From Gammaproteobacteria bacterium (GTDB lineage Bacteria; Pseudomonadota; Gammaproteobacteria; Steroidobacterales; Steroidobacteraceae): DNA of 35,310 bases. The DNA lies in the NCBI GenBank assembly GCA_025355165.1, contig JANYAD010000146.1:1-35310 (forward strand). The letters run 5' to 3'. Below the pieces are notes generated by a model, which was not told the DNA's origin, ran no database searches, and was given only the letters and a program-made list of their open reading frames with translations. Positions 9,863-26,959 of the stretch are shown here, in pieces (positions within the stretch are counted from its first letter, which is position 1; every line of letters starts with the position of its first letter). Position numbers and translations under genes: made by a program.

Positions 9863-10163
9863 TGAGCTCTCCATGTCCGAAATTCTGAGAAAACACAACG
9901 CCGCGGCCGATCTCCGGATGCATCAAATTGTAATTAGCAATGTTGTCCGAATGACCATAATGTCGCGTGACATAACCTAATGGCTTCGGTCTTCGGCCAC
10001 CTGACGACGGGGTCTCTCTTTTTTTATCGCCGCGCGACCAGATGCTCATTTTGTGAAGCCGATCACTGCGAACGGTGCTTGATGCAAGGTGGAGCTAATT
10101 TCAGCTTGCCGATTGCGGGCAAGTTGTCCACGGCGGCAGAGGGGTCGATACACGACGCGCATA

Positions 10164-10454
10164 GGTGGGGCTAGAGTGATCGCGATCTATGAAATATTGC
10201 ACAATTGCCGCGTCGCGAAGCCCGCAGACATCGACGCCGCCGTTGCAGTCATGGTCAAGAACGGATATGGACTCTACGGACTCGTCAACAATGCCGGTGT
10301 TGTCACGATCGGCCCGCTCATCGACACAAAGCCTGAGGAATTTGATCTGGTGATGACGGTGAATGTCTACGGTCCGTATCGCATGACCAAAGCCTTCACC
10401 ATTACAGCTCACGCGTCGATTCGCTTCCTCGATCAAGATTTGGCGCTGGAATAA
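10164..10454 (+). pseudogene. Remnant of a short-chain dehydrogenase/reductase (SDR)
   Basis: The frame shows the middle of a classical SDR: GARVIA (beta-2), KPADIDAAVAVM, the NNAG motif in LYGLVNNAGVVTIGPLIDTKPEEFDLVMTVN, then VYGPYRMTKAF. Missing are the N-terminal glycine-rich nucleotide motif and everything after about residue 130 of the family, including the YxxxK catalytic pair. The sequence after AFTITA no longer resembles the family. It is called a truncated, non-functional fragment. A VOC-family remnant lies on the opposite strand just downstream. Confidence 0.7.
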
Positions 10455-12266: not shown

Positions 12267-13718
12267 CTAATCAATCCGCCGCATTGCGCGGCGCATTTCC
12301 TGGGATAAGCCGATGGCGCCTACGAGATAGTGAATGGCCGCCCACGCATAGAGAAGCACGGTCACGATGATGCCCTGCCGAGAGGACAGGGCAAGCGTGG
12401 ACTCGCATGCCTGTCTTAGCACCGCGGTCGCCGCCAGCGCTTTCTCAGAACCACAAATCAATTTGAAGGAGCCCTGCAGCGCCCCAGCGCTGAAATTGTT
12501 TTCTGCAAAGCGATCGATGAGCCAGCCGGTAAAAGGAGGACCGCATCCCAGACAAACCACGGTCAGAAGAATGTACACCAGAGCCGTCGCCGTTGTGCGG
12601 CGGCGCGAGTCCACGATGTTTTGCACCACAGCCACGGTGGGACCAAAGGATAAGTATTGAAAGAATCCTGCGGCGCCCAGGAATAGCGCGCTTAACTTCC
12701 AATCGGCCTGCAGAAAGGCCAGTATGTATAGGGGCAACGCGATGCTAAGCCCAGCCGCGGGAACGAGTGCGTACCACTTCGCGTTGCGTGCGCCCAGCGC
12801 ATCGGTGGCAACTCCGCCCGCCGCGAGGCCCAAGCCCACGGTGAGGCCCCCTGTGGCGGCCGAAATGATGCCTATCGTCGCGTAGTCTAGACCGAAAGCG
12901 CGGCTGAAATAGGCGGGCGCGAATGCGTACGAGCCCTGCGCGGCGAATGAGGCCACGATCAACCCCGCAAGCATGTTAGCGATGGGCCGCTTCAGAAACA
13001 GCGTTCGTGCCACGTGCATCACTTCTTGGAATTCAGCTTTGAAACCAAGGTGACGAGAGCATACTGCGGGCTGCGATTCTGCCGGAAACGGGGCCGAATT
13101 CACCGCGGGGTCCGAATAGCCTCGCGGCGGCTCTTTGATCAACCAGCGCAAGAGCAGGGCAACGCCAATACCCGGCAGTCCGACCACCAAGCATGCGATC
13201 CGCCAGCCATAGTGAGCAGCGGCGTAGCCTCCCACAGCGGCACTCAATATGTAGCCCAATGAGATTCCGCACGAATAGATCGACAACGCGGTACCGCGAC
13301 GCGTTGGCGCGAAGTAATCCGATATTAGGGAGTGAGCCGGAGGGGTGCAGCCGGCCTCGCCCACGCCCACTGCCATCCTCAGCATGAGCAGTTGTGTGAA
13401 GTTCGCCGCCGCCCCGCACAAGGCCGTGAGCGCCGACCACACAGCTAACGCGGTTGAGATGATGATAATCCGGTTAAAGCGTTCGGCCAGGCGGGCGATG
13501 GGTAGACCGCTGAAGGCATAGAGCGTCGCGAACGCAGTGCCGATAAGAATACCGAGCTCAGCGTCGCTTAGATGCAGTTCTTTCTTCAGAGGCTGGCCGA
13601 TGATGGCGATCAGGGTGCGATCCGCCGAATTGAGCGTATAGGCCAGTGTCAGCAGCAAGACAACGGAGCGCTTGTAGGCGACCGAATAGTTGAGGCGGTC
13701 GGGTTTAAGACCGCTCAA
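12267..13718 (-). CDS. Spinster-type major facilitator superfamily transporter
   Basis: 483 residues with about 12 hydrophobic segments. The N-terminus has the Spinster-like stretch YTLNSADRTLIAIIGQPLK, then LGILIGTAFATLYAFSGLPIARLAERFNR (the loop 2-3 motif) and GVGEAGCTPPAHSLISDYF, characteristic of the Spns/AraJ-like MFS branch found beside catabolic genes. It starts with TTG, whose last two bases overlap the TGA of the dioxygenase gene (TTGA, 4-base overlap), so translation is coupled. The substrate cannot be read from sequence. Since it is locked to a PhyH-type dioxygenase and divergent from a C-P-cleaving oxygenase pair, import of the substrate or export of a product of those enzymes is a fair guess. 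It is one of two transporters in the block, and the only intact one. Confidence 0.85.
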   Translation of the reverse strand: MSGLKPDRLNYSVAYKRSVVLLLTLAYTLNSADRTLIAIIGQPLKKELHLSDAELGILIGTAFATLYAFSGLPIARLAERFNRIIIISTALAVWSALTALCGAAANFTQLLMLRMAVGVGEAGCTPPAHSLISDYFAPTRRGTALSIYSCGISLGYILSAAVGGYAAAHYGWRIACLVVGLPGIGVALLLRWLIKEPPRGYSDPAVNSAPFPAESQPAVCSRHLGFKAEFQEVMHVARTLFLKRPIANMLAGLIVASFAAQGSYAFAPAYFSRAFGLDYATIGIISAATGGLTVGLGLAAGGVATDALGARNAKWYALVPAAGLSIALPLYILAFLQADWKLSALFLGAAGFFQYLSFGPTVAVVQNIVDSRRRTTATALVYILLTVVCLGCGPPFTGWLIDRFAENNFSAGALQGSFKLICGSEKALAATAVLRQACESTLALSSRQGIIVTVLLYAWAAIHYLVGAIGLSQEMRRAMRRID

Positions 13719-14596
13719 GCGGGATCATGCGCACGCGCGGCTCGGGCTTCCTCGGTCCAGTCCGCCTCGATATAGAAGGGCCCCGGTTTTTCCCGCAGTT
13801 CCTCGTATTTGCAGATCTCGGGCTCGGGTCCCAACGGAGTGGACACGCCGCCGCGAAAAGTCCACTCGCCGCGATCGCTATCCATCGCGCGAACGTAGCT
13901 GCTGATCAGGAAGCGCCGATCGTAATTACTGACATTCGGCGCGGAGCCGTGCACCGTGTATAAAGTCCACAGCAACAAATCTCCGGGTTCCATGGTACAG
14001 GTCACTATCGACGCCGGATCGAGTCCCACCCGAACCAAATCTTGGTCCGGAGTCTGCCCCGTCATCAGAGTCTGATCTTCCGACAAGCCCAGATAGCCTC
14101 GCAGATGACTGCGCGGAACCACGCGCAGTGCGCCGTTCTCTACCGTCTGTCGATCGATAGCAAGACCGGTATTGATACTGCCGTAGAGCAGGTTGCGAAG
14201 CGCCGAGCTGTTGCGAAATTTCGCATCCTGATGATAGCGATAGTACGTGTATTTTGCTCCCGGAGGTTTCCAGTGCAGCTGGTGCGTAATCTGCTTGATG
14301 TCCGCCCCCAGCAACGGTTCGAGCAATTCGAGATATTTAGGGTGACGGCGCATGCTTTCCAAGTAGGAACTGATCCAAGCCGTCCAGTGAGCCTGAATGA
14401 CCACGCGGCGGCGCGCCTTCGGATCGTCGATTATCTCTAGCAGCAGGTTCTTGTGGCGATAAGTCGCGTGATGCTTGACGGCTTCCTGGTAGATCCTGTC
14501 GGTTTCGAGACCGATTTGCTGCATATGCTTAGCATCAAAGAATCCCCGCACGATGGCGTAGCCTTCCGAATGAAGTTTTTGTTGGATATCGTGCAT
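13715..14596 (-). CDS. PhyH-family Fe(II)/2-oxoglutarate dioxygenase
   Basis: 293 residues, usual length for the phytanoyl-CoA dioxygenase family. Visible features: the family opening EGYAIVRGFFD (10-21); the iron ligands His122 and Asp124 in RYHQDAKF and His216 in VHGSAPN; the 2-oxoglutarate-binding Arg a few residues on (RRFLISSYVR); and PRSHLRGYL between them. It should hydroxylate a small substrate using O2 and 2-oxoglutarate. PhnY, which hydroxylates 2-aminoethylphosphonate for PhnZ, belongs to this family, so the link to the HD oxygenase at 17112 is tempting, but assignment to PhnY is not possible from sequence alone. The gene is divergent from the OPA transporter with under 70 bases between them, so a shared promoter region is likely. 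It is the first gene of the leftward pair. Confidence 0.88.
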   Translation of the reverse strand: MHDIQQKLHSEGYAIVRGFFDAKHMQQIGLETDRIYQEAVKHHATYRHKNLLLEIIDDPKARRRVVIQAHWTAWISSYLESMRRHPKYLELLEPLLGADIKQITHQLHWKPPGAKYTYYRYHQDAKFRNSSALRNLLYGSINTGLAIDRQTVENGALRVVPRSHLRGYLGLSEDQTLMTGQTPDQDLVRVGLDPASIVTCTMEPGDLLLWTLYTVHGSAPNVSNYDRRFLISSYVRAMDSDRGEWTFRGGVSTPLGPEPEICKYEELREKPGPFYIEADWTEEARAARAHDPA

Positions 14597-14665
14597 AGAA
14601 GTCTCAAAGCGCCTTTAGGACCGAATGCTACGATGCACGCCAGCAAGAAGCAAAGAGCGATCCCA
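14597..14665. promoter_or_regulatory. Divergent promoter region of the oxygenase block
   Basis: Only 36-69 bases separate the leftward dioxygenase start (14596) from the rightward transporter start (ATG 14633 or 14666). Both promoters must lie here or overlap the coding ends, suggesting joint regulation. No clear operator dyad was found. Confidence 0.4.
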
Positions 14666-15973
14666 ATGAGGCGCGTCGAGGCTGCGAAACTTCCTTTGCG
14701 CTTTCGCCAAGCGAGCGTCGTTGCACTGTTGTTCTGCGGCTATGCGTCGCTGTACTTCTGCCGGGCGGACCTGTCGGTATCGATGCCGCTGCTGGTCGAT
14801 GAACTCGAAGCGCGCGGCCTCAACCATGCCGATGCCATCCTGCGCATGGGCCAGGTCGCCTCGCTGGGCGTGCTGGCCTATGCTCTCGGGAAGCTATTCT
14901 TGGCAGGCTTGGGCGACCTGTGGGGTGGGAGAGTCAGCTTTCTCATCGGCCTGGCGGGCGCAGCTGCGTTCACCCTGCTGTTCACGGTCGGCGAAACTGT
15001 GCCGCTGTTCATGCTCGCCTGGATCGGCAACCGGCTCACGCAGTCCATTGCCTGGGCGGGTCTCATCAAAGTCTCGTCGAAATGGTTCGATTACACCTTT
15101 TACGGCAGCGTCATCGGCGTACTCAGCATCAGCTATTTAGTCGGCGACGCGGGGGCCCGTCAATGGATGGGTATGCTGATTGAACACGGCTTCCACTGAC
15201 GAGCGCTGTACTACTTAGGGGCGGCCGTGGCAGGTACGATGTTGCTTTTCAATGCGCTGTTCTTGCGCGAATCGCGCCTGGACCTGAAGTTTGATGAAGC
15301 CAAACCCAATCCGTTGAATTTGTTTGGCGGCGAGGAGTCGCGGCCCAGCGTGCGCAGCCTTCTGCTAGCGCTGCTGCGCAGCCGTGCATTTGTGCTGATA
15401 TGCTTTCTGTCGCTGGGCTGCACCATTATTCGGGAAACCTTCAATATTTGGACACCCGTGTATTTGCGCGAATACTTAGGCTACGGCTTGAGCGATGCTG
15501 CGCGGATGAGTTCGATCTTCCCGGGAGTGGGCGCCGTGTCCGTCGTTACTTCTGGTTGGGTGAGCGATCGGATCGGCGTGAATGGCCGCTCGCTGGTGCT
15601 GTTTCTGGGATTGACGGCCACCGCAGCCGCGCTATTGCTGTTGATGTTGATGCCCTCGAGCGCGGCCGGCTCGCCGCTGCCACTGATTGGGATCGGCATC
15701 ATCGCGTTCTGCTTGTTGGGGCCCTATTCATACCTCGGCGGCGCTTTTGCCGTGGATTTCGGCGGCAAACGCGCTGCGGCAGCCTCCTCGGGCATCATCG
15801 ATGGCATTGGCTACTTGGGCGCGGTGGCGGCCGGCGACAGTGTGGCGAGACTGTCCGTATCATTCGGCTGGCAAGGCGTATTTGTGACACTCGCGGCAGT
15901 CAGTGGCGTGGCGGCTGTGGGATCAGGGTATTTGTTCTACTTGAGTGCCCGCGCCTCACGTGCCGGACGATAA
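14633..15973 (+). pseudogene. OPA/GlpT-like MFS transporter interrupted by an in-frame TGA
   Basis: Read through, the frame gives about 446 residues and 12 hydrophobic segments. The start resembles organophosphate:phosphate antiporters (CGYASLYFCRADLSVSMPLL, then ALGKLFLAGLGDLWGGR). A single TGA at 15197-15199 splits the gene after LIEHGFH; the same frame continues at once with RALYYLGAAVAGTMLL and stays open to 15973. In the family this loop usually reads G-x-W-R-x-L/x-F, so TGG to TGA is the likely change. There are no other lesions and the second half keeps normal codon use, so the lesion is recent, a sequencing error, or read through. ATG 14633 was chosen; ATG 14666 has a better GAG spacing. 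By family it would import phosphonates or phosphate esters, which fits the two oxygenase genes that follow (6-base gap). Confidence 0.85.
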
Positions 15974-15978
15974 CTGTT

Positions 15979-17121
15979 ATGAAAAAACCAATCCTGAGGG
16001 CGGTTCTTGCGAATACCGATTCGCTGACCTTGCACTGGGCAGACGGTCGCATCAGTGAGTTCGCCGCCATCTGGTTGCTCGACAACCAGCCCCAGCAGCG
16101 TGATGCCCACAGTGGTCAACGTTTGATCGACGTCGCCGATATCCCTTCGGCGCCGAAGATTCGCTCAGCCTCGATGCACCTAGGAATCGTGAAAGTGCAC
16201 TGGGAGAGCGAGCCGCACATCACCACGTTCGATGTGGGCTGGTTCGCTGCTCAGTTGGATGCGCCGTTCGAGCACGTGCCAAGGCAGTCCTGGCTCGGCG
16301 GCTCCTTGGACGCGATGCACGATTTTGCCTGGTTGAGCTTGCCTCAGGCCGAAGAACAGGCGGCTGGTCGCTCGCGTTGGCTTACACGCCTGCTGAGCGA
16401 TGGCATCGCCTTCTTGAGCGACGTGCCGGCTACCGACAACGCCATACTCGAAGCCATGTCCTTCGTCGGCCGCGTGGCCGAGACCAATTATGGGCTAGTG
16501 TTTGATGTGCGCTCGGTGGCCCAACCTGAGAACCTGGCGTTTTCCGATTTAGGATTGGGTTTGCATACCGACAATCCCTATCGAGAACCCGTGCCGGGCT
16601 TTCAAGCTCTGCACATGTTGATCGCGGCACCCGACGGTGGCGAGAGCCTGTTTGCCGACGGCGTGGCACTGGCCGAGCACCTGCGCCACTCTGAACCGGA
16701 GGCCTTCGAACGATTGACCCGCACGCCCGTGCCGTTTCGGTATCAGGCCAAGGATGCGGACCTCTATGCCGAACGGCCCTTGATCCAGTTATCGTGCGAC
16801 GGTGCCGTGACGAGCGTGCATTACAATAATCGATCCATAGCGCCGTTGCTGCTCTCGCTTGAGGAAACGCCGGCGTTTTACGGCGCGTACCGCAGGTTCG
16901 CGTTGCTATTGCGCGATCCTAAGTTTCAACTAAAATTTCTATTGCGAGGCGGAGATCTCGTGGTGTTCGACAACCAGCGCGTCCTGCACGGTCGCACGCC
17001 GTTCTCGTCGGCGAAGCAGGCGCGCCATGTGCGCGGTTGTTACTTGACGCGAGACAGTGTCTACAGCGAATCGGCGCTGCTGCGCCGTCGCTTTAGCGCG
17101 ATGGCACCTACATGCGACTAA
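15979..17121 (+). CDS. tmpA: Gamma-butyrobetaine-hydroxylase-like dioxygenase (TmpA type)
   Basis: 380 residues. An N-terminal DUF971-like domain (about 10-95: LHWADGRISEFAAIWLLDN, then SGQRLIDVADIP) precedes a TauD/GBBH catalytic domain. Iron ligands are His196 and Asp198 in GLHTDNPYREPVPGFQ and His337 in NQRVLHGRTPF, with Arg349 or Arg352 in RHVRGCY for 2-oxoglutarate. HYNNRS (281-286) is also typical of the GBBH/TMLH family. The zinc-binding Cys cluster of animal enzymes is absent. ATG 15979 sits six bases after the transporter stop. GBBH-like enzymes next to a PhnZ-like HD gene are the signature of TmpA, which hydroxylates 2-(trimethylammonio)ethylphosphonate. The symbol rests on this pairing; a plain betaine hydroxylase is the alternative. 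Confidence 0.72.
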   Translation: MKKPILRAVLANTDSLTLHWADGRISEFAAIWLLDNQPQQRDAHSGQRLIDVADIPSAPKIRSASMHLGIVKVHWESEPHITTFDVGWFAAQLDAPFEHVPRQSWLGGSLDAMHDFAWLSLPQAEEQAAGRSRWLTRLLSDGIAFLSDVPATDNAILEAMSFVGRVAETNYGLVFDVRSVAQPENLAFSDLGLGLHTDNPYREPVPGFQALHMLIAAPDGGESLFADGVALAEHLRHSEPEAFERLTRTPVPFRYQAKDADLYAERPLIQLSCDGAVTSVHYNNRSIAPLLLSLEETPAFYGAYRRFALLLRDPKFQLKFLLRGGDLVVFDNQRVLHGRTPFSSAKQARHVRGCYLTRDSVYSESALLRRRFSAMAPTCD

Positions 17122-17660
17122 CCGATGAGATTTTCGCGGTTTTTAAAGCGCGCGGCGCGGCGGCGTACTACGGTGAGAGCGTGTCGATGACCGAACACAT
17201 GCTGCAGGCCGCGTACTTTGCGCATGCCGAAGCCGCGCCCGCGACGCTGATTCTCGCTGCATTACTCCACGATGTGGGACATTTGCTCGAAACGGTGCCC
17301 GAGGATATCGCCGATTGGATTAGCGATGCGCGACATGAGGAAGTGGGTAGCCGCTGGCTGGCCCAACGGTTTCCCGCGGCCGTTTCCGAGCCCGTGCGCC
17401 TGCACGTTCCTGCGAAGCGCTACCTTTGCGCCACCGAGGGCGCCTATTTCGCGAAGCTCAGCCCGGCTTCGGTCCTCACGCTCCAGCTTCAGGGGGGTCC
17501 GATGGCGCGCAGCGAGATAGTGCGCTTCGAGACCGAAACGTTTTATCGTGACGCGGTGCGCGTCAGGCGCTGGGACGACGCCGGCAAAGTCGCCGGTTTG
17601 GCGGTCCACCAACTCGAGAACTATTGCGCACTGATCAATTCAATGAATGAACTGACCTGA
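17112..17660 (+). CDS. tmpB: PhnZ/TmpB-type HD-domain mixed-valent di-iron oxygenase
   Basis: 182 residues, normal for the family named phosphonate-degradation HDIG protein. The residues that separate these oxygenases from HD phosphohydrolases are present: Tyr19-x-Gly-Glu22, His29 (MTEH), His53-Asp54 and His57 (LLHDVGHL), His75 (DARHEE), His98 and Lys102 (LHVPAKRYL) and Asp155/156 (RRWDD). Their spacing matches PhnZ (remembered as Tyr24, Glu27, His34, His58/Asp59, His62, His80, His104, Lys108, Asp161) to within one residue. Such enzymes cut the C-P bond of a 1-hydroxy-phosphonate with O2, releasing phosphate and, for TmpB, glycine betaine. The start overlaps the dioxygenase stop by 10 bases, so translation is coupled. 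TmpB is preferred over PhnZ because of the GBBH-like neighbour. Confidence 0.82.
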   Translation: MRLTDEIFAVFKARGAAAYYGESVSMTEHMLQAAYFAHAEAAPATLILAALLHDVGHLLETVPEDIADWISDARHEEVGSRWLAQRFPAAVSEPVRLHVPAKRYLCATEGAYFAKLSPASVLTLQLQGGPMARSEIVRFETETFYRDAVRVRRWDDAGKVAGLAVHQLENYCALINSMNELT

Positions 17661-19714: not shown

Positions 19715-19841
19715 GAATTGATTCTCCCGGATAAAGATCGTTTGAGTCAGGCAGGGCGCGTCTATTGAAACTCCGTGATTCCTCCACAGCGTGGTGTTAC
19801 ACCACTGATAACCATCCACCCCTGCTTACCTGCGCCGCAGA

Positions 19842-20640
19842 AATTCGTGGAAAGTCTTCAAGGCTCCTCTCGCCGGCGGGGCGACAACGACGATTGCGAG
19901 CGGGATCTCGAGCAGTATGGCGCGCATCGCAGTCGAGGGGTCGCAGGTTTATATCCTCGACGGCGACTTCATCAAGACGGTGCCCACGGCGGGCGGTACC
20001 GTCGAGAAGATTGCGGTAGCACACGGGGACCTCGGCGACTTCTCGCTGGTCAACCAGGACATCGCGGTCGATGTCACAAGTGTCGATTGGACCATCAAGG
20101 GTATCGCCGGCGGCCCGACAGTGCAGAAGGTCGCACTCACTGGCGGCGCACCGGTCACACTCTCAATGGACACCACTCTGCCGAATCCGCAAGACGGTGG
20201 CGCATCGCGCTTGACTCGCAGAACTTATACTAAAGTGCGGGATCGAGCCAGTTCCCTGAGGGCTGCAGGATTAGGAAGGTGCCGCTGAATAGCGGCACCA
20301 CGACGACTCTGGTCGATTACGTTGCGCGCCGACTTCACCATTGACGGCACCCACGTGTACTTCTCAGAGCTCAATCCGGGCTCGATCCAGCAGATGCCAA
20401 TCGCCGGCGGCACCCCGACGCCGCTGGCGCCCGGCGCGCTCGGCACGGTCCTCGTAAACGACACCGCGCATCTGTACTGGATCGATCCAGCGTTAGCGCA
20501 GGTGTTGCAGTTCCCCAAGTCGGGGGGCGCATCGACAAACCCGGTTGCCTTCCCACTGGCATCGGCGACCGATCCATCGCTCGCACTGGACTGCCTGGCC
20601 GTCGACTCCAACGGTCTTTACTTGCAGCGAGGTGCAGGCC
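19842..20640 (+). pseudogene. Beta-propeller repeat protein, broken by frameshifts
   Basis: Repeats of the type VYILDGDFIKTVPTAGG, AVDVTSVDWTI, QKVALTGGAPVTL, RKVPLNSGTTTTLV and IDGTHVYFSELNPGSIQQ run through the region, as in PQQ/NHL-like propellers (V.VD…VYW….I..VPL.GG..T.L). They are split across frames: frame 3 from about 19842 to 20200, frame 2 (with a TAA at 20231 after ALDSQNLY) to about 20320, then frame 3 again to about 20640, ending in non-homologous sequence. At least two frameshifts and one stop are needed. The 5' end (signal peptide, start) is not found. It probably was a secreted repeat protein of several blades. Confidence 0.7.
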
Positions 20641-20881
20641 GGGAACATCGAATTCTTTTTCTAGCGTCCCGGTTTCTCCATGAGAACGCAAAAAGCGGAA
20701 GCTGCCGTCACCTAGTTACGACCTGCGCTCGCTGATGGTCTGCCCCATAAGATTGGTCGACCTGACTACTTTGCAAATACAACATAGCATAATCAATGTG
20801 TTATTATCGCACTACGCCTTATGTTAAATCTCATATTGTGATACAAATGCTACAGAGTGAGACATGTGCTACTCTCTGCCG
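20641..20881. promoter_or_regulatory. AT-rich leader of the toxin-antitoxin pair
   Basis: The stretch 20760-20860 is far richer in A/T than its surroundings. It carries a short dyad TTGT-GAT-ACAA (20836-20846) and a repeated TGCTAC (from 20848 and from 20868) just before the antitoxin start. Phd-type antitoxins bind dyads here to repress their own operon, so this is a plausible operator, though the dyads are short. Confidence 0.4.
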
Positions 20882-21130
20882 ATGAACCGAATCATTAATC
20901 AGCGCGAGCTTCGTAATCAGTCCGCTGCTGTCCTGCGCGAGGTAGAGGCCGGCGCCACCATCGTAGTGACGCGCAACGGGACGCCGGTTGCAGAGCTGCG
21001 TCCAATTCGGGCGCGACGATTTGTACTGCGAGCAACGATCTCTCAGGCAGCGAGCCGCGCACCTCGGATTGATGCCGGCCGCTTTCGCGCGGACCTTGAA
21101 GCAGTGGTCGACCAGCGTCTAGATGACTGA
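20882..21130 (+). CDS. Phd/YefM-family antitoxin
   Basis: 82 residues from ATG 20882 (an ATG 18 bases upstream is possible). The N-terminal fold is typical of the family: NRIINQRELRNQSAAVLREVEAG, then TIVVTRNGTPVAELRPI. In this family that part dimerises and binds operator DNA, and the disordered C-terminal tail (here about 50-82, with FRADLEAVVDQRLDD at the end) wraps and blocks the toxin. The 8-base overlap with the PIN gene and the order antitoxin first, toxin second are standard. No good Shine-Dalgarno sequence is seen, so the mRNA may be leaderless or weakly translated. The organism's chromosome or a past mobile element could be the source. Confidence 0.88.
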   Translation: MNRIINQRELRNQSAAVLREVEAGATIVVTRNGTPVAELRPIRARRFVLRATISQAASRAPRIDAGRFRADLEAVVDQRLDD

Positions 21131-21524
21131 ACCAACGAAAGGACTTCTCGACACATCGGTGGTTATCGACCACGACGTGATTGATGCAGCATTGCTGCCC
21201 GACGAATCTGCAATTTCCGCAATTACCCTCGCCGAACTCGCCGCGGGTCCTCATGCCACACAAAATGCCGATGAACGCGCTCGACGCCAGGACCGATTGC
21301 AATGGGCGAGTTTGATGTGGGATCCGCTGCCATTCGATGTAGACTCCGCGCGCGCATACGGCAGAATGTTCGCAGCTGCACGAGCCGCCGGACAGTCGAG
21401 TCGCACACGTTTCGCGGACTTAGCTATTGCTTCAACTGCCGTGGCAAATAGCTTACCTCTGTATACGCGAAATCCATCCGACTTCGACGCTCTAAAATCA
21501 ATCATTAAATTGGTTCGCGTATAG
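21123..21524 (+). CDS. PIN-domain toxin (VapC-like ribonuclease)
   Basis: 133 residues. The PIN acidic residues are in place: Asp10 in GLLDTSV, Glu38 in ITLAELAAG, Asp99 in RFADLAIASTA, and Asp120 in LYTRNPSDFDAL. Such proteins are Mg-dependent ribonucleases that stop growth by cutting tRNA or rRNA when free of antitoxin. The gene starts eight bases inside the antitoxin end. The residue layout (YTRNPSDF) is that of the VapC group usually paired with Phd/VapB proteins. It is intact and probably functional. No further gene belongs to the unit. Confidence 0.9.
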   Translation: MTEPTKGLLDTSVVIDHDVIDAALLPDESAISAITLAELAAGPHATQNADERARRQDRLQWASLMWDPLPFDVDSARAYGRMFAAARAAGQSSRTRFADLAIASTAVANSLPLYTRNPSDFDALKSIIKLVRV

Positions 21525-23332: not shown

Positions 23333-26300
23333 TCAGTTATTGAGTGTGGGTTCTGCTCGAGCGGCGGCGATCCAACGATCTATCCCCTGCTCGAGAATGG
23401 TCAGCGGCATGCTGCCGCCGAGCAAAATCTGGTCATGGAAATCCTTTAAATCGAACCGCGTCCCCAATTCCTGTTCGGCCTGCCGCCGCAGATCGCGAAT
23501 CTTCAGCTCGCCGAGTTTGTAGGAAAGTGCCTGTGCGGGTATAGCGACGTAGCGCTCTACCTCCGCGGCGGCTTGATCGCGCGTCATGGAAGAGTGCTGC
23601 ATCATCCACTCTACGCCGGCCTCCAGGTCCCATCCCAGAGCGTGAAGGCCGGTATCGATTACCAACCGATTGGCGCGCAAGATGGCATAGTTTAAGTGGC
23701 CGTAGTAATCCCAGGGCTCCTCGAACAGGCCCATCTCCTTGCCCAGCGATTCGGCGTAAAGCGCCCACCCTTCACCGTAGGCGTTGGTGAAATCGAAGCG
23801 CCGGAAGGACGGCAAATGCGCATTTTCCTGCGCTACCGAGGTCTGGAAATGATGGCCCGGCAAGCCCTCGTGCAAGGTCAATGTCATCACATTGAATTTA
23901 TCGCTGACACCCGGCGCGAAGAGGTTGATCCATAGGATTCCCGGACGTGAGCCATCGATGCCAGCCGCAGCGTAGTAACCGTTGGCCTGCGAGTTTCGCC
24001 AGGATTCGGGTAGAGCGCGTATCTGAAACTGCGCCTGCGGCAAGACATCGAACAGTTGCGTGAGTTTCGGAACGATTTTCTGCCGGGCGATTTCGAAGGC
24101 AGGAATGATCTCTTCGCGCGCCGTGAATTTTTGCTTGGGATTGTCGCGTACCTGGGCAAAGAACTCCTGCAGAGTGCCCTGAAATCCGAGAGCCGCTTTA
24201 ACCTTCGCAAGCTCGCCCTCAATTCTCGCCACCTCGGCACGCCCGAGCCCATGAATTTCTGTTGGGGTTAAGCCTGTGGTGGTGTGGAATCGCACGTCGT
24301 AGTCATAGAGTGCCGCGCCGCCAGGCATAGCCCCAAGACCGACGCTGTTGCGGGCATGCGGCAAGTAATCCTCCTTCAAGAACTTGAACAGGCGCGCATA
24401 AGCAGGCTCAATGACCTTCTCGATCTTCATTCGGTACTGGCGCTCAAGGCGCTGCCGGTCCTGAGCTGAGAACGTGACGGGGAGATTGACAATCGGGCGC
24501 CAAAACTCGGTCTTTTCTGCAGGCAGATTGGTATGCACCCGAAGCTGCGGCAGCATGCGCTCGACGATCATGCGCGGCAACACGACGCCCACCTTGATTC
24601 CCTGTTGCATGCGTTCGATAGCTTGATTGATCCAGCTTGAAAAATGATCGGCGCGCGCCAGTGCTCGGCGGTAATGCTCGAGGGTCTTGAAAGGGTAGTC
24701 TCCCGCTCCCCCGGCCTGCGCGGCAAAAGCCGTATGCTCGCCATCGAACTGATTGATCGGGAGCATGCGCTGAGTCTCAAACAGGGGACTCGAGTAGAAA
24801 TGCTTGGCGAGCGTTATCTGCTCGCGCAACATGGTCAGACTGGTGCGACCTGCTGGCGCGAGAGATTGGGCCTGGAATGCAGCGCTGGCCTGCAGGTACT
24901 CATCGAGCATCGCCAGCATGCGTGCGCGCCAGCCGTCCTCGAGCGACTCATCGAAGCGATCGAGATGGCGTTCATCACCGTGCGACAGGGCGAGTGCGGG
25001 TTGCAGCTCGAGCAAGTCTTGCCAGTACTTCTCCAGCATCTCGTGCAGCGCCGAGGAGTCGCCCTGCGGGGTCTGTGCCGCGGACTTCGACTGAATGTAC
25101 GCATCGATCTTCTGCGACAGAGCCCACAACGGGATATAGCCGCTGCCGAGCGCCGCCGCGTGATATTCGCGCAAGTCGAAGCGCGGGCCCAGCGCCTGGC
25201 GCGCGCGCTCCCGCTCGGCGACGAAGCGGCGCATGCCGAGCATGAACGAGGTGGCTTGTCCGGGCACCGCCAGGTAGCGATCGACCGCGCGCTCATTGGT
25301 CTCTTGCGCTGCAGCGGTGTTGCTATTCAGATACTCAATCGCCTGTTCGCGCGTCCAACGTTTGTAATGCAGCCCACTGTCCACGACCAAACGGCTGGCG
25401 CGCCACAGCTCGCCGGAAAGCAGACCCAATTCTGAGTACGGGTCCTGATAGGCGCCAAGGTCTTTGGCAAGACGCTCGGCGTACAGACCCCAGCCTTCAA
25501 CGAAGGCGCTGTCCTGCCACCATTCATTTACCTTGCGCAGCCGCGGGATGGAGCGGTCCACGAGAATCGTGGATATCTGCATGTGGTGACCGGGAACGCC
25601 CTCGTGATAGAGCAGGTCTTCGAGCTCATTCAACGGGCACAGCCGCATGTTGGCCAAGTTGAGATTCACTGTGCCCGGACGGCTGCCGTCGGCAGGGCCG
25701 GGCTCGTAAAATCCCGGCGGCGAGGAGGCCTCCTTATAGGAATCCGTGCGCACGACCCGAAGCGGCAAGGGAGCCGGCGCCGCGAATGCTTGTGTGACCT
25801 TATCCTGCATGGCGGAAACTATATTGCGGGCGCGTGTGAGATAGGCCTGGCGCCCGGCTTCATCGTTCGCGAAATAGTTTTCCGGGTCCGATTTGACCTT
25901 GGCCACGAACTCGCGCAGCGTGCCGGTGAATCCAGTGCGCCGCATGAGCGAGGCAATGTCCGCTTGGCTGCGCGCGACTTCCGCCAATCCCATCTCGTGG
26001 ATCTGTGCCGGTGTCAGATCAGTGGTGGTGAACTGACGAATCAAGAATGCATAGAATGCGTCCCCATCCGGAAGCTGCCAGACGCCGCTGGTGATTTGAG
26101 TTCGTGCCGATTGCAGCCGTAAGAGCTCAATGAGTTGCCGGTAAGCGGGCTGCAGGTCAGAGAGCAGCGCCGCCCGCGCGTTTTCCACCAGCACCCGCTT
26201 GCGCGTGGCTGGGATGTCGAGCAAGGCAATCCGCCGCTTAAAATCGCCAAAGATCGGGCTGTCCGGTCCTGCATCGTGCGGCGCGCCCGAAATGACATTG

Positions 26301-26959
26301 CGTGCGCCCTCGATCAGCAGAGGATAAACGCTCTTCGGCATCATGACGCCATGAGCGGCCTGCTCGCGCATCTGCGCCACTAAATCTCGAAACGCCGAGC
26401 GCACCGCGCGAATGCGCCTGATATAGGCCAGCGCGTCCGCCTCGTTTTCCAGGGGTTGCTTTCCAGTCAGCGTGCCAGGCACGTCAAGGTGCAGTCCGAC
26501 GATCTGATTCAGCGGATAGAGGTGGTCGCGCCAGCGGTAGCGGTCGAGGAGCAGTTGCTGCTCATCGAGAAAGACCCGGTATTGTAGCTGCGCTGCGCCA
26601 TCGAACTTCTCGTAATCGAAGCGGCTCCTCGCAGCGTCGAGCTGGTCGCGCACCTTCGCGGCGGCAGCCGCCAACGCGCGCTCCGACCGATCGTCCCAGC
26701 GGTCATAGCCCGCCCTCGATCCGAACTCGGTCGCCAACTGCGGACTTTGCGCCAGCCGCTGTTGATAGACAGCCTCGAGAAAGTCTGCGAAGCGGGCGGA
26801 TTCATCTCCGGTCGAGGGCGCTAACGCAGCATCGGAGGCTCGCATGGGCGGCCCCGTCCGCTCGGGCTGCGCTGCCGGCGCGCCGAAGACGCCCGCCGCG
26901 CAAAGCAGGCCGGTCCACAGAATACTCGCCGGCCAACCTGTTCGACCGGGCTTGCGCAT
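23333..26959 (-). CDS. Tandem double-DUF885 metallopeptidase-like protein
   Basis: 1208 residues, about twice the normal DUF885 length, and clearly two complete copies in one frame. Copy 1 (about 55-625) has HEGVPGHH (His452, Glu453, His458, His459) and VEGWGLYAE (Glu488). Copy 2 (about 635-1200) has HEGLPGHH (His1030, Glu1031, His1036, His1037) and GEGWALYAE (Glu1063). Both also keep the G.DGSRPG and RL.VD.GLH segments, so both look active. A signal peptide (residues 10-30) predicts periplasmic or outer-surface location. DUF885 proteins are thought to be zinc carboxypeptidase-like enzymes. The gene begins four bases after the receptor stop. The two copies differ strongly, so the fusion is not a recent duplication. 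Confidence 0.92.
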   Translation of the reverse strand: MRKPGRTGWPASILWTGLLCAAGVFGAPAAQPERTGPPMRASDAALAPSTGDESARFADFLEAVYQQRLAQSPQLATEFGSRAGYDRWDDRSERALAAAAAKVRDQLDAARSRFDYEKFDGAAQLQYRVFLDEQQLLLDRYRWRDHLYPLNQIVGLHLDVPGTLTGKQPLENEADALAYIRRIRAVRSAFRDLVAQMREQAAHGVMMPKSVYPLLIEGARNVISGAPHDAGPDSPIFGDFKRRIALLDIPATRKRVLVENARAALLSDLQPAYRQLIELLRLQSARTQITSGVWQLPDGDAFYAFLIRQFTTTDLTPAQIHEMGLAEVARSQADIASLMRRTGFTGTLREFVAKVKSDPENYFANDEAGRQAYLTRARNIVSAMQDKVTQAFAAPAPLPLRVVRTDSYKEASSPPGFYEPGPADGSRPGTVNLNLANMRLCPLNELEDLLYHEGVPGHHMQISTILVDRSIPRLRKVNEWWQDSAFVEGWGLYAERLAKDLGAYQDPYSELGLLSGELWRASRLVVDSGLHYKRWTREQAIEYLNSNTAAAQETNERAVDRYLAVPGQATSFMLGMRRFVAERERARQALGPRFDLREYHAAALGSGYIPLWALSQKIDAYIQSKSAAQTPQGDSSALHEMLEKYWQDLLELQPALALSHGDERHLDRFDESLEDGWRARMLAMLDEYLQASAAFQAQSLAPAGRTSLTMLREQITLAKHFYSSPLFETQRMLPINQFDGEHTAFAAQAGGAGDYPFKTLEHYRRALARADHFSSWINQAIERMQQGIKVGVVLPRMIVERMLPQLRVHTNLPAEKTEFWRPIVNLPVTFSAQDRQRLERQYRMKIEKVIEPAYARLFKFLKEDYLPHARNSVGLGAMPGGAALYDYDVRFHTTTGLTPTEIHGLGRAEVARIEGELAKVKAALGFQGTLQEFFAQVRDNPKQKFTAREEIIPAFEIARQKIVPKLTQLFDVLPQAQFQIRALPESWRNSQANGYYAAAGIDGSRPGILWINLFAPGVSDKFNVMTLTLHEGLPGHHFQTSVAQENAHLPSFRRFDFTNAYGEGWALYAESLGKEMGLFEEPWDYYGHLNYAILRANRLVIDTGLHALGWDLEAGVEWMMQHSSMTRDQAAAEVERYVAIPAQALSYKLGELKIRDLRRQAEQELGTRFDLKDFHDQILLGGSMPLTILEQGIDRWIAAARAEPTLNN

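Follow-up and report, generated by a model that had tools for sequence, protein, structure and literature searches.

The window analysed here, 35,310 bases long, is one entire contig (JANYAD010000146.1) from a genome of the family Steroidobacteraceae, which comprises 4.16 Mb in 271 contigs. It carries two divergent sets of genes (Table 1). On the plus strand, an OPA-like transporter gene is followed by genes for a TmpA-like dioxygenase and an HD-domain oxygenase. On the minus strand lie genes for a PhyH-family dioxygenase and a transporter of the major facilitator superfamily (MFS), which overlap by 4 nt. The transporter-to-TmpA spacing is 5 nt and the HD gene begins 10 nt within the TmpA-like gene, which fits a single OPA-TmpA-HD operon. 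The GC content is even across the short gap between the PhyH and OPA-like transporter genes. The genes are real: best E-values of 1.2e-101 (TmpA-like), 1.3e-60 (HD) and 1.1e-22 (PhyH) exclude chance matches.

Table 1. Genes and features of the two divergent gene sets in the window
Feature	Position	Strand	Evidence
MFS transporter	12267-13718	-	PF07690, 169.3 bits
PhyH-family Fe(II)/2-oxoglutarate dioxygenase; H122, D124, H216, R227	13715-14596	-	PF05721, 81.9 bits (cut-off 22)
OPA-like (GlpT/UhpC/PgtP-like) MFS transporter gene, interrupted	about 14633-15973	+	profile matches and homology to intact transporters of relatives
In-frame TGA stop inside the OPA-like transporter gene	15197-15199	+	sequence reading
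TmpA-like (GBBH superfamily, TauD-family) Fe(II)/2-oxoglutarate dioxygenase	15979-17121	+	PF02668, 159.1 bits (cut-off 27)
TmpB/PhnZ-like HD-domain oxygenase	17112-17660	+	PF01966, 24.9 bits (cut-off 22)

A preliminary description of this DNA had proposed a TmpA/TmpB-like phosphonate-oxidation locus, and this reading finds support in profile scores, phylogenetic trees, key residues and the conservation of the operon. In NCBIfam the TmpA-like protein scored 340.2 bits with TmpA (NF049936, cut-off 400), 276.4 bits with gamma-butyrobetaine hydroxylase (GBBH; TIGR02409, cut-off 414.75) and 166.4 bits with trimethyllysine dioxygenase, so that it shares the TauD superfamily and the aromatic positions discussed below with the last two but scores highest with TmpA. 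The PDB matches fall in the same order (TmpA 6npb, 8.7e-69; GBBH, 1.3e-30). The HD protein matched only three NCBIfam families at E 0.001, namely Phn-HD (TIGR03276, 204.0 bits, cut-off 214.6), TmpB (NF049941, 190.6 bits, cut-off 300) and PhnZ (PhnZ1, 163.2 bits, cut-off 300), and in the PDB TmpB (6npa, 1.1e-37) came ahead of PhnZ (5.5e-29). As the curated TmpA cut-off is not reached, the dioxygenase is filed as TmpA-like only. The HD protein reaches neither the TmpB nor the Phn-HD cut-off; the latter was passed by just three of 296 genomes of the order (17 of 398 in the phylum), so the whole lineage is low-scoring.

The iron-binding residues His196, Asp198 and His337, which the preliminary description had picked out in a GBBH-like dioxygenase, are invariant in all 36 aligned sequences, window included. 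The accessible text of PMC9296572 gives N187, N287 and R288 as the phosphonate ligands of TmpA, and also names shared aromatics. By alignment these ligands correspond to N185, N284 and R285 of the window protein (the solved TmpA chain is numbered 6 higher). Aromatic residues Y171, F175, F188 and Y355 are present as well, at four positions for the trimethyl group that were mapped from GBBH residues. N185 and R285 occur together in all 35 dioxygenases adjacent to an HD gene, a count that takes in the window protein and Leisingera TmpA, but in none of the seven related dioxygenases that are not beside an HD gene. Position 284 is more variable, with N in 28, S in five and A in two of the 35.

A tree of 42 dioxygenases placed the window protein within a 23-row clade of its own family (support 100/100), separate from a 10-row clade that contains Leisingera TmpA (100/100). 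The family clade is 33-36% identical to HD-adjacent TmpAs from outside the family. A grouping of all 35 HD-adjacent rows was not rejected (approximately unbiased test, p 0.6), its likelihood being slightly higher. The position of the family clade, together with scores below the NCBIfam cut-offs, is the reason for the names TmpA-like and TmpB-like used here.

The accessible text of PMC8177086 describes HD oxygenases that cleave the C-P bond by an H...HD...H...H...D set of ligands and a YxxE loop. Both are present in the window protein: Y19-x-G21-E22, H29, H53, D54, H75, H98 and D155 are invariant in all 52 aligned sequences, window included, in agreement with the preliminary description, which had noted the Tyr-x-Gly-Glu and di-iron residues in a protein overlapping the end of the dioxygenase. 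(Seven of 58 HD sequences, from L128, L131, L133, L138, L141, L149 and L150, were left out of the alignment, and a partial HD, G283:C205, was not included.) The protein also has K102, S120, Q127 and a further histidine, H57. In a tree of 54 rows its clade (95/91) comprises 28 rows of the family, five of them HD proteins without an adjoining TmpA; TmpB and its TmpA-partnered kin form a separate 9-row clade (100/96), and PhnZ is distant. Clustering with phosphohydrolases, named beforehand as an outcome that would overturn the proposal, did not appear, the best profiles being Phn-HD, TmpB and PhnZ, although the tree was composed without MIOX and HD hydrolases. At position 26 the window protein and TmpB have Met, and PhnZ has Gln. 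Across the HD rows it is Met in 26 of 32 TmpA-partnered proteins and Gln in 14 of 20 others, and residue 26 is therefore a possible marker for quaternary versus primary amine substrates.

The operon is conserved. Beyond the window, 29 HD loci were drawn from the 296 genomes of the order, and in 23 of them a TmpA-like gene adjoins HD. A close OPA gene (at least 56% identity to a reference OPA gene) is present in 17 of these 23, upstream in 16 and downstream in one; two have a distant OPA (24-28%) downstream, and four (L088, L089, L094 and L095) have no OPA match. The other six HD loci lack TmpA, and two of them have OPA. HD is carried by 65 of 200 genomes of the family, own genome included, and is rarer in the phylum (38 of 398 genomes), where TmpA lies within 1.5 kb of HD in 10 of 29 loci fetched. 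Eight of the nine neighbour proteins scanned beside TIGR03276 HD genes of the phylum, at eight hand-picked loci, are encoded by phosphonate genes, which include phosphonoacetaldehyde dehydrogenase, 2-aminoethylphosphonate transport genes, PhnE and HpnW.

Some variants of these loci were seen. OPA and HD without TmpA in the DNA examined were found at L068:4275-6171 and L070:7941-9824, where, if the enzymes are active, some other source must supply the hydroxylated substrate. A protein of about 700-775 residues lies beside OPA in five loci (L084:3182-5509, L068, L070, L091 and L092), with a carboxypeptidase-regulatory-like domain in Pfam for L084 and L068; a similar protein occurs at L095:506-2842, 4 kb before TmpA, and none is beside the window operon. 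The genome of the window has a second HD oxygenase (L067:5118-5663, 71% identical), which adjoins an MFS gene and a TonB-dependent receptor gene; its contig, 12.6 kb long, gave no match to TmpA. In three of the 29 HD loci (L072:4341-5582, L083:7397-8638 and L087:7367-8605) HD is fused to a C-terminal domain. The only one scanned, that of L087, is a HAD phosphatase (HAD_2, 85.7 bits; best NCBIfam match a beta-phosphoglucomutase family), and the fusion is possibly a two-step phosphorus-scavenging enzyme.

It is considered probable that OPA-TmpA-HD is an operon for the oxidative breakdown of a quaternary-ammonium phosphonate, situated beside an unrelated PhyH-MFS module, and that its importer gene is either broken or mis-sequenced. 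The three genes probably free phosphate from a phosphonate, as the known marine enzyme pair does. A small zwitterionic phosphonate would enter through the OPA-like antiporter. The TmpA-like enzyme would hydroxylate the carbon next to phosphorus using O2 and 2-oxoglutarate, and the HD protein, as a mixed-valent diiron oxygenase, would then split the C-P bond, releasing phosphate and leaving a carboxylate, which would be glycine betaine if the compound hydroxylated is 2-trimethylaminoethylphosphonate. What the analysis shows is the homology, the residues, the conservation of the operon and that PhyH-MFS can be separated from it; the substrate, the way it is carried and the chemistry are inferred.

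The closest described system is TmpA/TmpB of Leisingera caerulea (PDB 6npb and 6npa), in which dioxygenase and HD oxygenase likewise adjoin, and which has in common with the window the iron and phosphonate residues, the aromatic positions and Met26 of the HD protein. It differs in that the window dioxygenase belongs to a separate TmpA clade, that both window proteins score below the equivalog cut-offs, and that the window operon has an OPA-like partner; the accessible part of PMC10574752 presents the known TmpA/TmpB case as a two-gene operon. Among the listed papers on TmpA/TmpB, PhnY/PhnZ, 2-trimethylaminoethylphosphonate or Steroidobacter phosphonates, no title or displayed abstract describes this operon, and none was found on PhnZ together with transporters. 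A TmpA/TmpB-like operon with an OPA-like importer would extend the pathway to another lineage, one in which about a third of the sampled family genomes carry HD. The finding is ordinary to mildly new.

Several observations weigh against this interpretation. All three NCBIfam scores fall below their cut-offs (TmpA 340 of 400, TmpB 190.6 of 300, Phn-HD 204 of 214.6), HD genes of this family do not always have TmpA as a partner (it is missing from six of the 29 order loci and found within 1.5 kb in only 10 of the 29 phylum loci), and the seven dioxygenases without HD are few and some are long-branched in the tree. The transporter gene is interrupted, and PhyH genomes have HD more often than expected, a mild argument that the two modules are not wholly independent. 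Nor does any Pho-box-like site stand out: neither the 18 regions searched in front of the transporter nor the 10 in front of PhyH (the window counted in each set) had a signal in common, and the null fraction fell no lower than 0.02, a value reached in one locus of the 28.

The interruption of the transporter was overlooked in the preliminary description, which had an OPA-like transporter in front of the enzyme pair and counted two transporters at the locus. The OPA-like gene is not a single open reading frame, and the count of two is weakened to that extent. Its parts, at 14453-15199 and 15227-15973, share one frame and are split by the TGA codon; alternative in-frame starts are possible at 14453, 14570 and 14668. 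A 439-residue transporter of a relative spans both parts, with 431 residues aligned at 69% identity and the one TGA inside. The genome contains no close intact paralogue, the single other match having 27% identity and 22.7 bits. In this assembly, phosphonate uptake would therefore be lost or fall to another system, unless the stop is a sequencing error.

The locus may be decaying in this strain, with the transporter already a pseudogene and the enzymes to follow. This is a possibility to be taken seriously, although we do not favour it. The in-frame stop, the lack of a close intact paralogue and the branch of the window TmpA-like protein (0.58, exceeded by only one other among the 23 rows of its clade) are in its favour. 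However, neither enzyme is truncated or lacks a catalytic residue, and the two halves of the transporter are about equally conserved against four intact relatives (65-68% identity before the stop, 61-70% after it), which implies that the stop is recent or is a sequencing or assembly error.

A more doubtful alternative is that the pair is specific for a phosphonate, but one other than 2-trimethylaminoethylphosphonate, such as a dimethyl or longer-chain quaternary aminophosphonate. Scores of both proteins under the NCBIfam cut-offs mean that the substrate may differ, and the separation of the family clade from Leisingera TmpA, its low identity to outside TmpAs and the variation at position 284 point the same way. 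Against this, the TmpA-like protein retains the aromatic positions and the phosphonate ligands, and the HD protein has Met26 as in TmpB.

The PhyH and MFS genes, by comparison, form a conserved module separate from the operon. MFS is beside PhyH in all nine close orthologue loci (PhyH 65-76% identity, MFS 49-59%) and in all seven of a further set, partly from the same genomes as the nine. H122, D124, H216 and R227 are invariant in 29 of 29 aligned PhyH proteins; one alignment (A4) omitted L126 (31% identity). The preliminary description had named a divergent PhyH dioxygenase and a 'Spinster' MFS. The two families agree with the Pfam scan, in which the transporter appeared as MFS_1 and its match to the OATP profile fell just under the cut-off; 'Spinster' was that description's own name.

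The preliminary description had further seen PhyH, GBBH-like dioxygenase and HD as one mixed arrangement. As a conserved system this does not hold, because a neighbour scan of the available DNA found TmpA or HD near none of 29 PhyH loci, and the window's PhyH near none of the 29 HD loci beyond the window. The survey for co-occurrence of the three genes, suggested at the time as a check, thus returned no locus other than the window. The arrangement is most likely two modules side by side, and the PhyH-MFS module would have been brought beside the operon by rearrangement or assembly. Adjoining dioxygenases need not form one pathway, and a 'mixed' system should be claimed only after gene neighbourhoods have been surveyed.

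The PhyH protein is also not a recognizable PhnY. It scored 32.3 bits against the PhnY profile NF052437 (cut-off 500), and it does not lie beside phnZ or another HD gene in relatives. Over 150 phylum genomes the profile gave one weak match (L170, 166.9 of 500 bits); no HD gene was found next to this match, nor any resemblance between it and the window's PhyH at E 0.01. PhnY*/PhnZ and the Gimesia GmPhnY/GmPhnZ have an HD oxygenase of the same family, and the window also has a PhyH-fold dioxygenase nearby; they differ in that the window PhyH scores far below the PhnY cut-off and has no HD neighbour in other genomes, and in that the window HD is closer to TmpB than to PhnZ. The AlphaFold model of PhyH has a mean predicted local distance difference test score of 92.4. 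Its nearest folds are GriE, a leucine hydroxylase, and proline hydroxylase H11, at 18-21% identity, with EctD and human PHYH/PHYHD1 within about 2 Z units; such likeness does not establish the substrate. PhnY was not among the fold matches listed, which says nothing against PhnY likeness. Since the fold neighbours are amino-acid hydroxylases, the module probably hydroxylates another small metabolite.

At the level of whole genomes, HD and PhyH are associated to some extent. HD is present in eight of nine genomes with a close PhyH, in four of four with alphaproteobacterial PhyHs (53-57% identity), in two of three with actinobacterial PhyHs (weak, about 1e-19) and in one of 12 with distant PhyHs (41-45%, L113-L124). 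The L126 genome has one, and the total is 16 of 29 PhyH genomes. HD adjoins TmpA in both alphaproteobacterial loci fetched (L179 and L180), and OPA, TmpA and HD are together in all eight HD loci fetched from close PhyH genomes (L171-L178). In the draw of 200 family genomes, HD is in 10 of 11 PhyH-positive genomes, own genome included, and without the own genome the association has a Fisher p of 1.8e-4. Stratified by genus, p is 0.027 (10 of 11 observed, 6.9 expected), with kinship within genera uncorrected. The strata were three genera, with HD in 16 of 22 (own genome excluded), 25 of 58 and 14 of 15 genomes. The 11 were the ten PhyH-positive genomes of the draw, own excluded, and the L105 genome, whose genus was placed by matching HD contig positions and was searched for PhyH only in part.

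This association is suggestive only, and leaves a shared role for PhyH and HD open but weak. The preliminary description's suggestion that PhyH may make the TmpA substrate is speculative, and the association speaks at most for a looser link. In that genome-wide form of the idea, PhyH and MFS would be a second arm for uptake and hydroxylation, supplying the HD oxygenase that TmpA also serves, and the divergent placement of the modules in the window and the excess of HD in close PhyH genomes over its frequency in the family agree with this. We nevertheless think it unlikely, given that the stratified p is modest, that PhyH and TmpA/HD are never adjacent elsewhere, that 11 of the 12 genomes with more distant PhyHs are without HD, that the PhnY score is low, and that the fold neighbours are leucine and proline hydroxylases. 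A stronger version, in which PhyH-MFS is a mobile second phosphonate arm, with a new phosphonate or precursor hydroxylase outside PhnY and its own importer, acting in trans with the TmpB-like HD and adjacent to it only here, is regarded as quite unlikely. That the two proteins are instead a gamma-butyrobetaine hydroxylase and an adjoining HD phosphohydrolase, neither of them concerned with phosphonates, is very improbable: the GBBH score and the remark in the accessible text of PMC8177086 that most known HD proteins are phosphohydrolases count for it, but TmpA ranks ahead of GBBH, the HD protein matches only the Phn-HD, TmpB and PhnZ families, the N185 and R285 pair follows HD adjacency throughout, and the YxGE loop is kept.

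The remaining genes of the window of at least 130 residues had no match above 33% identity in a synteny comparison with loci L064-L155. Judged by eye, the segment at 10089-10454 looks like a short-chain dehydrogenase remnant and that at 19775-20735 like fragments of one broken repeat protein. A short protein at 21123-21524 resembles a PIN-domain (VapC-like) protein, and the halves of a 1208-residue protein at 23333-26959 resemble two copies of one peptidase-like domain, again by eye.

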